DNA of 64,000 nucleotides from Haloarchaeobius salinus. GTDB lineage: Archaea > Halobacteriota > Halobacteria > Halobacteriales > Natrialbaceae. The stretch spans positions 1 through 64,000 of the forward strand of contig NZ_JANHAU010000005.1 of the NCBI RefSeq assembly GCF_024464185.1. Reading direction: 5' to 3'. The notes below the pieces were generated by a model. It was not told where the DNA came from and searched no databases. It saw only the letters and a program-made list of their open reading frames with translations. Each line of letters opens with the position of its first letter. Position 1 is the first letter of the stretch. Below, in pieces: positions 25,192 to 34,194 of this stretch. Made by a program: the position numbers and the translations under genes.

Positions 25192-26898
25192 TTACCCGAA
25201 CTTCCGTAGGAAGTCACCTAACGCCCGTACGAACGTCTTTGCCGTGATCACTGGCGGTGACCGGATCGGTTTATCGAGTGCGACCTTGATCAGATAGTCT
25301 GTGAGCCGCCACAGGTTATAGATCAACGTCGACAACGCGAAGTTGCATAGCCGAAGCCGATAGTCCGTCGACGATGTCTTCGGCAGAAAGTCCTTGATTG
25401 ACTTGTACTGGTTTTCGATGTCCCACCGCCGACTGTACCCGTTCACCACGCTCGCAATCTCCTCCGGCTCAACGCGGTCCTCGTTCGTCACGAACACCGC
25501 GTACTTCCCGTCAGCATCATCGCGTGTGCTCTGCGCGTAGAGAAACTCCGCCTCGTGATGAACCTCGCCGTCGATTCCCAGCGGCACATCGTGTTTGACA
25601 GCTGCATCCGCCGTCGGATGCTCCTGAATCTCCTGAATCGCCGCCAAGTCATCCTCGTACGTCGGAACTGGCGAGAGGTACGTCAGGTCCCGGTCATGAA
25701 CGTCTGCGTACACCTGATTCACGTAGAATCCTCGGTCGAACACCACCGTGTCCAAATCGACGAACCGCTCGGCACTGTCCAGTAGTCGGCTCACCAGGTC
25801 GGCTTTCGAGTACGACGGGGAACCGTCAGGCTCCCACTCGGAATCCTCTTTGACCGGCTCGATACCGAGGACAATCGGTGCATGGTCTCCGACCAGGGTG
25901 ATGGTCGCGTACTTGTACCCTCGCTTGTACTCGCCGTCTTTCTTGTACCCGCTCACCATCTTCGGATAATCTGGCTTGGCGACGCCTGCTTCCTTGTCTT
26001 CCCACGGCCAGACGTGGAACTGCTCGTGTGTGATGTCGATAGCTGCAATCGTCTCACGAGCGCTGAAAGGGTTCTCTCCGCGAATCGAGTTGATGATGTT
26101 GTCCGTCGCGGCGTCGAACGCCGTCATGATAGAGTCTCTAATCCGGTCGATTTCCAGCATCGAATCGTCATCCTCGAAGGTGAGTTGGCTGTCCGAATCG
26201 TCGGGTGTCGCTATCTTCTTAATCGCACGCAGGAACGTCGAGTCGTCGCAGATGAGGTCGTCTGTGAGCCAGCCGTACTCCGATTCAGAATGAGCACTCC
26301 CCTTGTTTGCACAGATTCGTGCGAACATGTCGAGTATCACTTCGTCGGAGTAGGTCTTGTGGGCCGCTCGGTGTGTGTCGAACTCGGGAAGGACGTGCTT
26401 TCGAGCGAGCGTCAGCGTCTTCTGGGCTTACTCCTTCTTGTACTCGTTCTCGCTCTTCGAGTTCTCCTCCTCGAGTTCAGTTGGACCGGTCGGAACCAGT
26501 CCCTCTGTAATCACGCCGTGGTCGAGTGCAGCCTGTCGCACGCCCGCAACCGTCCTGTTGAGAACCTCTTGCGTGTCCTCGCTGAACTTCCCGTGCGTGT
26601 ACGAGAGGTCTTGTTGGGTGGGTGTGTTGGAGAGATCAGTAATGTCGAATTGGAAACTCTTTGTCAAGGCCGGACTCTGTCCTAATCTAGCCGCGAGTTT
26701 GTTCTGGGAGATGCCGCGGACCCCCATGAACAGCAGCGCACGAAACATCTCGTCGGTTCCGTAGGTGACGCGGTTCTGGTCGCGTGCGTCCTCAAGTTCG
26801 CTAACGGGAATCGAGAGCCTTTTGATGACGTCCCAGAGGTGGTCTTCACGCTCACAGAGCGTCTCTGCGTGAACAACGATGCCCTCCGCAACAGTCAT
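25192..26898 (-). pseudogene. IS4-type DDE transposase interrupted by one in-frame stop
   Basis: One frame runs from ATG 26898 to 25192 (568 codons) with a single TAA at 26428-26430 (after NEYKKE). The sequence resumes directly with AQKTLTLARKHVLPEFD. No frameshift is present. The second part holds the catalytic residues: Asp in AIDITH, Asp in VVFDRGFY, and YSRRWDIENQYKSIK, which matches the IS4 Y-x2-R-x3-E-x6-K signature exactly. A single base change explains the loss. The C-terminal part still has its catalytic core, but it lacks the N-terminal DNA-binding region unless the stop is read through. Confidence 0.85.
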
Positions 26899-31275: not shown

Positions 31276-31631
31276 GCATCTCCTTGGGACGCACACGCGT
31301 TCTTTTTCCACTCGGGATGTAGTTTCTCAGCCAGGTTGATCACTTTGCGGTTCAGAGACCAGTCTGAAGTGTAGCCGATTGTGCACATCTGCCACGGTTG
31401 ATGTACGAGGAACTATCTACTCCGTGCCTGTGTTGAAGTTGACGCGAGCACCTATTGATTCCCGTCCGCAGGATAAATGTTGGAAGATTGGTGGTTTGTA
31501 GGAGTATAAACGCAGAATCTGTGAGTGGCACCCTTCGTTCTAGATATCGTGAATATTGGTTTATACATCTGCGAACTCCCCAAGGCTGGTCGGTCGGGAG
31601 CGCCTCGCAATCGAGCGGTGACTCGTGTCCG
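31276..31631. other. 356-nt region without an assigned gene
   Basis: A minus-strand frame ending near 31276 contains SLNRKVINLAEKLHPEWKK, which is protein-like, but the frame overlaps the RND gene end and has no recognised family; it may be a remnant. Two TATA-like TATAAA/TTTATA sequences at 31504 and 31558 are present. The region lies between the RND gene and the frameshifted NmrA pseudogene. Confidence 0.4.
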
Positions 31632-32448
31632 GACCGGGTCCTCGTCACCGAGGCGACCGGCACGGTCGGTAGTCACTCCGTGCGGAGCTCGCGGCGTACG
31701 AGGGCCCGACCGCCCGTGACCCGGATGGACACGATGGGCCTGCAGACGAGGCATCCCGTTCGACTTCACCGACCCCAAGACGTGTCGAGACGCGTTCGCC
31801 GCCGCGGATTCCTCGTTCCTGGTCGGGCCGCCCGCGATTTCGCGGGTCGAGCGGGAGAGGGTCCCCGCTCTCGCCGCCGCGGTCGGTGCCGGCATCGGCC
31901 ACATGGTCTTCCGCTCGGACATCGGATGGAGCGCAACCCGGTGGTCCCGCACGCGATGATCGAGTCCTGGCTCAGCAGGAGCGGTGTCGAGACCACGGTC
32001 CTCCGAGCACCGTTCGTACAGAACCTCGTCGCCGAGCACCTGGCCGAGGTTCGCGCGGGCGTACTGTTCATCCCCGCTGGTGATGGTGGAACGAGTTTCG
32101 TCGATGCACGCGACGTGGCCGCTGTCGCGGCGGTCGCACCCACGACAGTTCGCACGGGCCACGTACGACCTCCCGGGTCCGATTCGCTCGGGTACCACGG
32201 GGTCGCCGGGGTTCGTCCCTGAGCTGGATCACCCCGTCCGGTACGTTTGGCTGTCCCTTTCCCGGTTCTGTTGGCGTCGGGTACGTTCCGGTCGTGATCT
32301 CCGCCCGGTGCCCGTCAGGTCTGCTCTCGACCCGACCGCGCGTCTGGGGTTCGATGTTCGGGCGTCTAGAATCGTGCGTCATCTGCTCGGCCGTGATTCC
32401 CGTTCGTTCTCGGCGTTCGTTCGTGACTCGAGGGGCGTGCTGTCGTGA
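31632..32448 (+). pseudogene. Frameshifted NAD(P)-binding NmrA-type oxidoreductase
   Basis: The three plus frames together spell one NmrA-family protein. VLVTEATGTVGSH (31638, Rossmann start) is in frame 1; DFTDPKTCRDAFAAADSSFLVGPP to HMVFRSDIG (31753 to about 31910) in frame 2; MERNPVVPHAMIESWLSRSG to FVDARDVAAVAAV (about 31925-32140) again in frame 1; and RYVWLSLSRFCWRR to SFSAFVRDSRG (about 32240-32448) in frame 2. At least three frameshifts are needed. The order and content match intact NmrA proteins, which bind NAD(P)H and act as oxidoreductases or redox sensors. Confidence 0.75.
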
Positions 32449-32506
32449 TGTTCAGTCGGTCGGTAGCCTCCATGAAACACCACCAGAATCGACTCCCGTA
32501 CCGACA

Positions 32507-32610
32507 TTCATCTTCTGTGTTCATCGACCATATTCACTAGTTGTGTTCATAAGATACATTCATCTATGTAGTTCCATCATTGTGTTCATTGCTGCAATTC
32601 ATTGGTGAAT
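32507..32610 (+). repeat. Array 1 of eight 13-bp direct repeats, TTCAT-n8
   Basis: TTCA occurs at 32507, 32520, 32533, 32546, 32559, 32585 and 32598, and TTCC at 32572: eight exact 13-bp steps. Most units read TTCAT, three are preceded by TGTG, and the remaining bases vary. The repeat lies about 290-390 nt before parA in AT-rich DNA. Such direct repeats at fixed spacing upstream of parA are typical of partition sites or replication iterons. The binding factor is not known. Confidence 0.75.
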
Positions 32611-32736
32611 TGAGTAGCATATAAGATGAGAGTGGAACACTGAATACAGACGATGAATGTAGCGCCTTACTGTAGGCCGTTGGTGTACTTTATTACTGGA
32701 AGGTGTTGCAGTACGTAGTTGTTGAGAAAAGTTGTG

Positions 32737-32840
32737 TTCGTTGATTGCTGAAAGTTGTTGAGTTCAAGAGGCGAATTCAGTACATGTGCTCGTTAGGTGT
32801 GTTCAACGTTCGTGTTCACTTGTCACGTTCACCACCGGAA
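32737..32840 (+). repeat. Array 2 of 13-bp direct repeats before parA
   Basis: TTCA occurs at 32763, 32776, 32802, 32815 and 32828, TTCG at 32737, with degenerate units at 32750 and 32789; all are on one 13-bp register. It ends 53 nt before ATG 32894, so it overlaps the likely parA promoter. It is not in phase with array 1 (139 nt from the last unit there). Two inverted TGAA copies 13 nt apart (32641, 32654) lie between the arrays. Confidence 0.7.
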
Positions 32841-32893
32841 GTCACGAATGCGTCTGACGAACATTCAAGATGAATGGGTGTGATGAACCGAGC

Positions 32894-33769
32894 ATGTTAG
32901 CGTACTCGACGTACAGCGAGGCCGGCGGGGTCGGCAAGACGACGACCGCCGCCAACCTGGCAGTGGCGCACGCTCGCGCCGGGCTAAAGCCACTCGTCGT
33001 CCCGCTCGACCCACAGGACGGCGACCTCTCCCGGCTGTTCGGCGTCGACGACCAGCGGACGGAACCGGTCGACAACGTCGTCCGGCACATGATCCGACGA
33101 CCGAAAGGTGAGTTCGACGACCTCGTCAGAACCGTCGAGGGCGTCGACATCGTCCCCGAGCACAACATGCTCTCGGACCTCGCGGAGTACCTCCAGCGCG
33201 AGAAGGACCAGGCCGAGGCGATGGGCGAGGCCTTCGGGATGCACGCCCAGCTCCTCCGGGTGCTGCGCGAGGCCGGCGTCCCCGAGAAGTACGATGTCCT
33301 CATCTGTGACCCGCCGGCGACGGAGGGCCCGCACCTCTACAACGCCATCCACGCCACGCGCTCGCTCGTGATCCCCGTGGAGCCGAGCGCGAAGGGCCGT
33401 GCCGCAGTCGAAGGTCTCGAATCCCTCGTGGCGGGGCTGGAGGAGCAACTGGAGGTCGACGTCGGTGTGCTCGGTGCCATCCCCATCGGGTTCAAGGACA
33501 CGCGCGACCAGCGGACCATCCTCGACGAGATCCAGTACCCGATTCCGGAGATCATCGGCGAGCGAGCGTCGATGATGGAGGGCTGCTGGATGCAGCAGTG
33601 CTCGGCGTACCGGTACGTGCGCGAGCACCGCGACCGACAGCGTGACTACGAGGTGGAGACGCTGGCCCAGTTCGACCGCATCGCCCGCCATCTGGAACGC
33701 GAGGTCGGACTGCAGGCCCCGAACCCGCCCGAACCTGGCGATCTCGAACACGAGGTGCTCGCCCCATGA
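32894..33769 (+). CDS. parA: ParA/Soj-family partition ATPase
   Basis: A 291-residue P-loop ATPase. The deviant Walker A reads SEAGGVGKTTT (residues 8-18), the A' motif VVPLDPQDGDLSRLFG, and Walker B VLICDPPATEG. The signature lysine before the first Gly pair in ParA/MinD (KGG) is Ala here, as I recall for other haloarchaeal members. ParA ATPases move plasmid or chromosome copies together with a DNA-binding partner. ATG 32894 gives the usual MLAYSTYSEAGG; the ORF start at 32870 adds an unrelated tail. It overlaps the partner gene by ATGA, and the repeat arrays lie upstream. Confidence 0.9.
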   Translation: MLAYSTYSEAGGVGKTTTAANLAVAHARAGLKPLVVPLDPQDGDLSRLFGVDDQRTEPVDNVVRHMIRRPKGEFDDLVRTVEGVDIVPEHNMLSDLAEYLQREKDQAEAMGEAFGMHAQLLRVLREAGVPEKYDVLICDPPATEGPHLYNAIHATRSLVIPVEPSAKGRAAVEGLESLVAGLEEQLEVDVGVLGAIPIGFKDTRDQRTILDEIQYPIPEIIGERASMMEGCWMQQCSAYRYVREHRDRQRDYEVETLAQFDRIARHLEREVGLQAPNPPEPGDLEHEVLAP

Positions 33770-34194
33770 CGGGGATGAAAGAGGGTGCCGGAGAGGACCC
33801 GTTCGCGGAGGAAACGCCGGAAGACACTGGGCCGTCCGGAAGTTCGAGCACAGGCACGACGACGGGGGCAGCGTCAGGCGAATCGAGCAGCACCGAAAGC
33901 GCCGACCACTCCTCCTCGGGCAGTAGTCGGAGCGGCGGTCGCCGCTCGATGTCCATCCCGTACAAGTTCCGGCGCGACGGCGTCCAGGACGGGCGTGACC
34001 GTGTCCCGCTGTTCCTCAAGCCCGAGACGAAGAGCGCCGAGCGAGACGCACTCCGGGAGCTGGAGGAGCGCTTCGACGCCGACGTATCGCTCACGGACCT
34101 CCGAGAGGCGCTCGTGATGGTCGGTCTCGAGCATCTCGACGAGGTCGAGGGCGAGCTGGAGGAGTGGGGCTACGGGATGACGTTCGACGAGTAG
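33766..34194 (+). CDS. Putative DNA-binding partner of ParA
   Basis: A 142-residue protein. Residues about 1-65 are Ser/Thr/Gly-rich, acidic and probably disordered. The rest (SIPYKFRRDGV, then RVPLFLKPETKSAERDALRELEERF and VSLTDLREALVMVGLEHLDEVE) forms a strand followed by two helices, a layout compatible with a ribbon-helix-helix or similar small DNA-binding fold. I did not recognise a named family. Its start overlaps the parA stop (ATGA), so it would be made together with ParA and may bind the 13-bp repeats upstream. Confidence 0.8.
   Translation: MTGMKEGAGEDPFAEETPEDTGPSGSSSTGTTTGAASGESSSTESADHSSSGSSRSGGRRSMSIPYKFRRDGVQDGRDRVPLFLKPETKSAERDALRELEERFDADVSLTDLREALVMVGLEHLDEVEGELEEWGYGMTFDE

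Follow-up and report, generated by a model that had tools for sequence, protein, structure and literature searches.

The two arrays of 13-bp repeats in front of a parA gene of Haloarchaeobius salinus are, judging from their sequence layout, very probably both the centromere (parS) and the promoter operator of a ParA-type segregation cassette. The window, that is, the whole stretch of DNA analysed here, comprises 64,000 nt (positions 1 to 64,000 of NZ_JANHAU010000005.1, contig C5 of genome G000), and its numbering is used throughout unless a contig is named (Table 1). What can be read from it and its relatives is a 13-bp grid, a switch from direct to inverted units towards parA, overlap with the promoter, a two-gene operon of parA and a small downstream gene (here called the adaptor), a core word specific to the cassette type, and satellite arrays on the same replicon. 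The three-part system of the original prediction (repeats, a ParA with the altered P-loop SEAGGVGKT, and an adaptor of ~140 aa) is real and recurrent.

Table 1. Features of the parA cassette in the window, and related features elsewhere in the same genome
Feature	Location	Strand	Description
Array 1	32507..32610	+	eight direct units of 13 bp; core TTCA, in one case TTCC
Inverted unit pair after array 1	32641..32657	-	TGAA at 32641 and 32654, on the array 1 grid, offset 4 mod 13
Array 2	32737..32831	+	direct units sharing a 13-bp register
Inverted continuation of array 2	32845..32887	-	CGAA at 32845 and 32858, TGAA at 32871 and 32884
TTCAAG	32864..32869	+	-30..-25 from the parA start, inside the array; putative TATA-like promoter element
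parA	32894..33769	+	291 aa, ParA-type Walker ATPase, P-loop SEAGGVGKT, without N-terminal HTH extension
Adaptor gene	33766..34194	+	142 aa, 4-bp overlap with parA; proposed centromere-binding protein
Adaptor N-terminal motif MTGMKEGAGEDPFA	33766..33807	+	K5, G7 and P12 invariant
Adaptor C-terminal folded domain	33952..34191	+	strand-like segment and three helices
Second parA-adaptor cassette (L075)	G000 contig C7:101809-103265		own 13-bp arrays, core TCTGTAAC
Isolated mini-array (L074)	G000 contig C5:173089-173131		three TTCA units in GC-rich DNA

Repeat arrays in front of parA

All repeat positions given in the original prediction were correct, and the exact 13-bp step of TTCA was confirmed both by a 13-mer layout and by shuffling. 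In the layout, array 1 has TTCA at 32507, 32520, 32533, 32546, 32559, 32585 and 32598, with TTCC at 32572; array 2 has TTCG at 32737 and TTCA at 32763, 32776, 32802, 32815 and 32828, its slots without TTCA being degenerate (32750, and CTCG at 32789). Array 2, which had been thought to end at 32840, runs on as inverted units to 32884; these keep the same 13-bp grid at an offset of +4 (a TTCA/TGAA axis), and the last ends 7 bp before the parA start. The sequence TGTGTTCA is present in both arrays. The segment 32507-32893 holds 13 TTCA, with 8 pairs at lag 13, 6 at 26, 6 at 39 and 5 at 52; 5000 dinucleotide shuffles of this segment gave at most one TTCA pair at lag 13 and at most three at any lag. 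Tandem Repeats Finder did not list the arrays in the window, because only ~4-6 of the 13 bases are fixed, and the short-repeat search breaks them up. The 13-bp spacing had been called non-helical; this holds for neighbouring units (1.24 turns) and fails for four units (52 bp), which make ~5 full turns. GTG tends to precede alternate units of array 1 (32507-32610), a 26-bp sub-period.

The TTCAAG within the array is probably a TATA-like promoter element, and it is the best-conserved non-coding element at the 46 loci of the TTCA clade (T 98%, A 96%). A coding reading of the stretch before parA, with RTFK in frame, was rejected, this stretch being the promoter-proximal part of the array. The start of parA, previously placed at 32870, is most likely the ATG at 32894, because MLAYSTYSEAGGVGKT is conserved in homologues and the sequence before it is not.

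Elsewhere in the window, 31452-32450, upstream of the arrays, holds fragments in several frames, apparently remnants of a short-chain dehydrogenase/epimerase gene that has decayed. On the minus strand, 25192-26898 encodes a DDE transposase (DDE_Tnp_1) and a DUF772-type N-terminal piece as separate ORFs, resembling a split or decayed IS element, and 168-1448 encodes an IS605 OrfB / TnpB-type protein with a Cas12f1-like TNB domain.

Conservation of the 13-bp period

The prediction was to be given up if homologous parA genes had no conserved 13-bp repeats upstream; class-wide, they do have them, and the cassette shows the cis-acting repeats near the operon by which ParA-type partition cassettes are recognised. 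Upstream of parA, z13 exceeded 4 in 70 of the 83 cassettes sampled across many genera of haloarchaea and in none of 200 AT-rich controls, and it is on these controls that the argument rests, the per-locus z being taken against block shuffles and carrying no formal p-value. In the other 13 cassettes z13 was 4 or less. Mean z over the 83 cassettes was 6.2 at lag 13, 5.1 at 26 and 3.4 at 39; other lags gave ~0, except for weak secondary lags at 13n±4 (~1). A second, newly drawn set of 20 loci, mostly from genomes having several cassettes, contained 17 with a recognisable parA, and z13 was above 4 in 14 of these.

Close relatives of the adaptor were found at ~45 further haloarchaeal loci. Across the TTCA clade (n=46) the units stand at fixed distances from the parA ATG, the direct ones at -131, -118, -105, -92 and -79 and the inverted ones at -49, -36, -23 and -10. 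The consensus unit is TRTTCAYYRnnWN, and inverted units are offset from direct ones mostly by 4 mod 13, with minor registers of 7 and 8. Distant relatives (adaptors ~30-43% identical) have no TTCA arrays and keep the 13-bp period with other words.

Core words and cassette types

The step is constant and the core word varies by cassette type (TTCA, CTTAG, TCTGTAAC, TACTG, TTAGGC). The match of word to type is descriptive, gene type being confounded with phylogeny: RVPLFL adaptors go with TGTTCA, TVQLHL adaptors with TCTTAG/CTAAG, MIPYTVW ParAs with TACTG, MLTYTTY ParAs with TTAGGC, and ESGGxxKT ParAs with TCTGTAAC. The last type includes the second cassette of the H. salinus genome, whose ParA has the P-loop SESGGTYKT, Tyr replacing the glycine before the P-loop lysine. 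In those genomes examined that have two or three cassettes, the words differ among co-residents, with one near-exception (L138 and L139 of G098); such divergence within one cell is as compatibility would predict. The 378-kb plasmid NZ_CP099393.1 (G094) carries two cassettes, at C3:88020 (GTTCA) and C3:264882 (ACTGG), as if two replicons had fused.

Mini-arrays away from parA

The pattern TTCA(N9)TTCA(N9)TTCA has five matches in the 3.85-Mb H. salinus genome, none of them outside C5. Four belong to the arrays; the fifth is the isolated mini-array, which is separated by ~140 kb from parA and by ~22 kb from the one Orc1/Cdc6 gene that was found on C5. When 32 genomes and three named plasmids were scanned for distal arrays, matches were concentrated upstream of parA; of the distal clusters, 17 shared a contig with the cassette and 5 did not, 3 of these 5 being in drafts of at least 40 contigs. 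A reversed control pattern matched once in the whole scan. For the eight genomes with known contig sizes, the probability that all ten distal clusters would fall on the cassette contig by chance is ~1e-10, an estimate that ignores plasmid base composition, which the reversed control covers. Some replicons of the scan yielded no distal array. Seven distal sites were inspected: each forms a compact island of 3-6 units, and the ORFs predicted over some of them include no par gene. Sites so largely confined to the cassette's replicon are expected for a centromere and not for an operator alone.

A ParA lacking the signature lysine

The parA product matches the ParA/Soj family of Walker ATPases (Pfam AAA_31, 9e-19; Thermus Soj, 1e-11; PHROG ParA-like, 3e-25). 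We call it ParA-type but variant because the signature lysine of the deviant Walker A motif (KGGxGK[T/S]) is missing; Ala stands in its place, and Ala or Ser in distant cassettes, so that NQKGGVGKTT of Soj aligns with SEAGGVGKTT. All 71 ParAs of one set have SEAGGVGK[TS], the set having been selected by a motif requiring E[AS]GG; plasmid loci chosen without that motif agree with it, having SEAGG, SESGG, NEAGG, AESGG and NQSGG. We assume normal ParA chemistry despite the missing lysine. The related ParA of virus phiH1 was considered as a member and rejected: it has the canonical lysine (NQKGGVAKS) and no 13-bp period upstream (z -0.7), and belongs to a different branch.

This ParA is found on 183 complete haloarchaeal plasmids, including pNRC200, H. 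mediterranei pHME132 and H. walsbyi PL100. Some cassettes lie on contigs of main-chromosome size (G153, G001, and C1 of G287), and 'plasmid' partition is therefore too narrow a term. In Haloferax massiliensis (NZ_CSTE01000004.1, L022) the parA start and upstream region are tandemly duplicated: the two SEAGGVGKT starts are separated by 185 bp, and one of the copies is truncated.

The adaptor, a putative centromere-binding protein

In the loci examined, parA and the adaptor gene overlap or adjoin. The adaptor has an invariant MKxG...DPF start, then an acidic, Ser/Thr-rich disordered linker, and then the C-terminal domain; we propose the N-terminal motif as the ParA contact and the C-terminal domain as the site of DNA binding and dimerisation. 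No match was found in Pfam (including ribbon-helix-helix (RHH) families), NCBIfam, PHROG or PDB sequences. The AlphaFold2 model of the domain has low-confidence strand-like segments followed by a confident helical core (helices 24-40, 47-57 and 62-71; mean pLDDT 80), a monomer being a poor test of an obligate dimer. Foldseek searches with the full adaptor model and with the domain returned only chance matches, with no confident DNA-binding fold. An RHH fold is possible on the model, and we do not claim it since no fold match was found among solved structures in the PDB. The family occurs in 250 of 391 sampled Halobacteria genomes and in none sampled outside the order; it is a Halobacteria-only family.

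Alternatives to a centromere

The original prediction had left the choice between a partition site and an iteron-type origin. The partition site is favoured because no Rep or Orc1 gene is conserved adjacent to the cassettes and because mini-arrays are scattered over the same replicon. An origin at which the 13-bp repeats bind a replication initiator, with the parA cassette merely adjoining, we consider highly improbable: iterons are indeed tandem repeats of similar size, and Orc1/Cdc6 genes adjoin a few cassettes (L081, L087, L088), but most annotated neighbourhoods of relatives have no adjacent Rep or Orc1 gene, and no adjacent cognate initiator gene of the kind that marks an iteron origin was found here, the only Orc1/Cdc6 gene found on C5 (273 kb) lying at 195 kb, ~162 kb off. 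Moreover, the core word varies with the cassette type and the position of the arrays is fixed to the parA start codon.

The arrays might instead serve only for cooperative autorepression of the parA operon, with no centromere role. Inverted units and the TATA-like TTCAAG do overlap the promoter at fixed positions, but the arrays reach to about -400, far past the size of an operator, and isolated arrays are found at distances of tens to hundreds of kb, away from the par genes and for the most part on the replicon of the cassette; a pure operator is accordingly very unlikely. There is similarly little to be expected of a binder other than the adaptor, be it ParA itself or a host protein. The fold of the adaptor is not assignable to a DNA-binding family, which leaves room for such a binder, but the ParA has no DNA-binding extension, its P-loop region starting ~8 residues from the N-terminus, and a single host protein would not give different core words in co-resident cassettes.

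Proposed mechanism and significance

For a centromere that doubles as an operator, we propose that each adaptor dimer would use its C-terminal domain to bind a single unit and that the dimers would row up every 13 bp, with ~90 degrees between neighbours (1.24 turns); as four units make about five turns, the protein would wind round the DNA. The exposed N-terminal MKxG...DPF tails of the bound row could then touch nucleoid-bound ParA-ATP and stimulate its ATPase, and the replicon would be moved by the ParA gradient. The same binding would cover the promoter and start region and repress the operon, and different core words would let several replicons per cell be sorted independently.

Whether the cassettes form a separate class of segregation system, one that occurs solely in Halobacteria and is among the chief systems of their large plasmids, is to us an evenly balanced question. 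Such a class would combine a lysine-less ParA branch, a binder whose fold is unassigned, an invariant 13-bp step, core words diversified into compatibility groups, and satellite mini-centromeres over the replicon.

Archaeal centromeres were named as an outstanding question in a 2016 review (PMC5120986). The arrays had been predicted not to be a described haloarchaeal partition site, and our search, which covered the open-access literature, indeed turned up no paper describing the adaptor or a haloarchaeal centromere with a 13-bp step. The cassette offers a concrete, class-wide candidate for the segregation of the many haloarchaeal megaplasmids, with a defined site, a putative binder and an apparent specificity code. 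It occurs in manipulable model organisms (Halobacterium pNRC200, Haloferax mediterranei). With it, centromeres could be tagged, stable vectors for haloarchaea built and plasmid incompatibility predicted, and one could test how a ParA functions when its signature lysine is missing.

Comparison with known partition systems

In type Ib bacterial partition (ParF-ParG, pB171 etc.), a short ParA without HTH works with a small binder that has a disordered N-terminus, and repeats upstream of parA serve as centromere and operator. The haloarchaeal cassette resembles these systems in its short, HTH-less ParA, its small partner with a disordered segment and its repeats upstream of parA, but differs in the missing signature lysine, in an adaptor that belongs to no known family and in the strict 13-bp grid.

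Among archaeal systems, AspA-ParB-ParA of plasmid pNOB8 includes a site-binding protein that spreads along DNA (PMC9178275, PMC5120986). Like it, the haloarchaeal cassette pairs an archaeal partition-type ParA with a putative site-binding protein, but has only two genes, whereas pNOB8 has three proteins, with a ParB/CENP-A-like adaptor. The nearest archaeal analogue, as far as layout can be compared, is SegAB of Sulfolobales, in which a ParA is followed by a small site-specific DNA-binding protein, the genes overlap, and SegB sites lie upstream of segA and elsewhere on the replicon (PMC12284271, PMC5120986). The same arrangement is found here: an archaeal ParA, a small downstream protein, overlapping genes, and sites both upstream of parA and elsewhere. 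SegB recognises 13-bp palindromes (TCTAGASTCTAGA) that are scattered, for the most part within chromosomal genes, and not arrayed in tandem (PMC12284271, PMC5120986), whereas the haloarchaeal units are tandem TRTTCAYYRnnWN and not this palindrome, and a PDB search at E<=10 with a profile of 48 adaptors yielded no SegB chain.

The nearest working analogue, again by likeness of layout, is the delta-omega system of pSM19035, in which a ParA acts with the RHH-type ParB omega on a parS of 7-bp WATCACW heptads (PMC9499535). In this parS, 7-10 short, non-palindromic units follow one another without gaps, in either orientation, and overlap promoters; the plasmid has several parS sites, and full ATPase activation takes at least four contiguous heptads, in various orientations (PMC9499535). 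The haloarchaeal unit is by contrast 13 bp long with a ~5-bp core, and several core words are in use. Omega has a known RHH fold; the adaptor family is restricted to Halobacteria, and no sequence relation between the two was found. Both systems nevertheless have a ParA with a small binder (putative in the haloarchaeal case), contiguous short units in both orientations, overlap with the promoter, and several sites.
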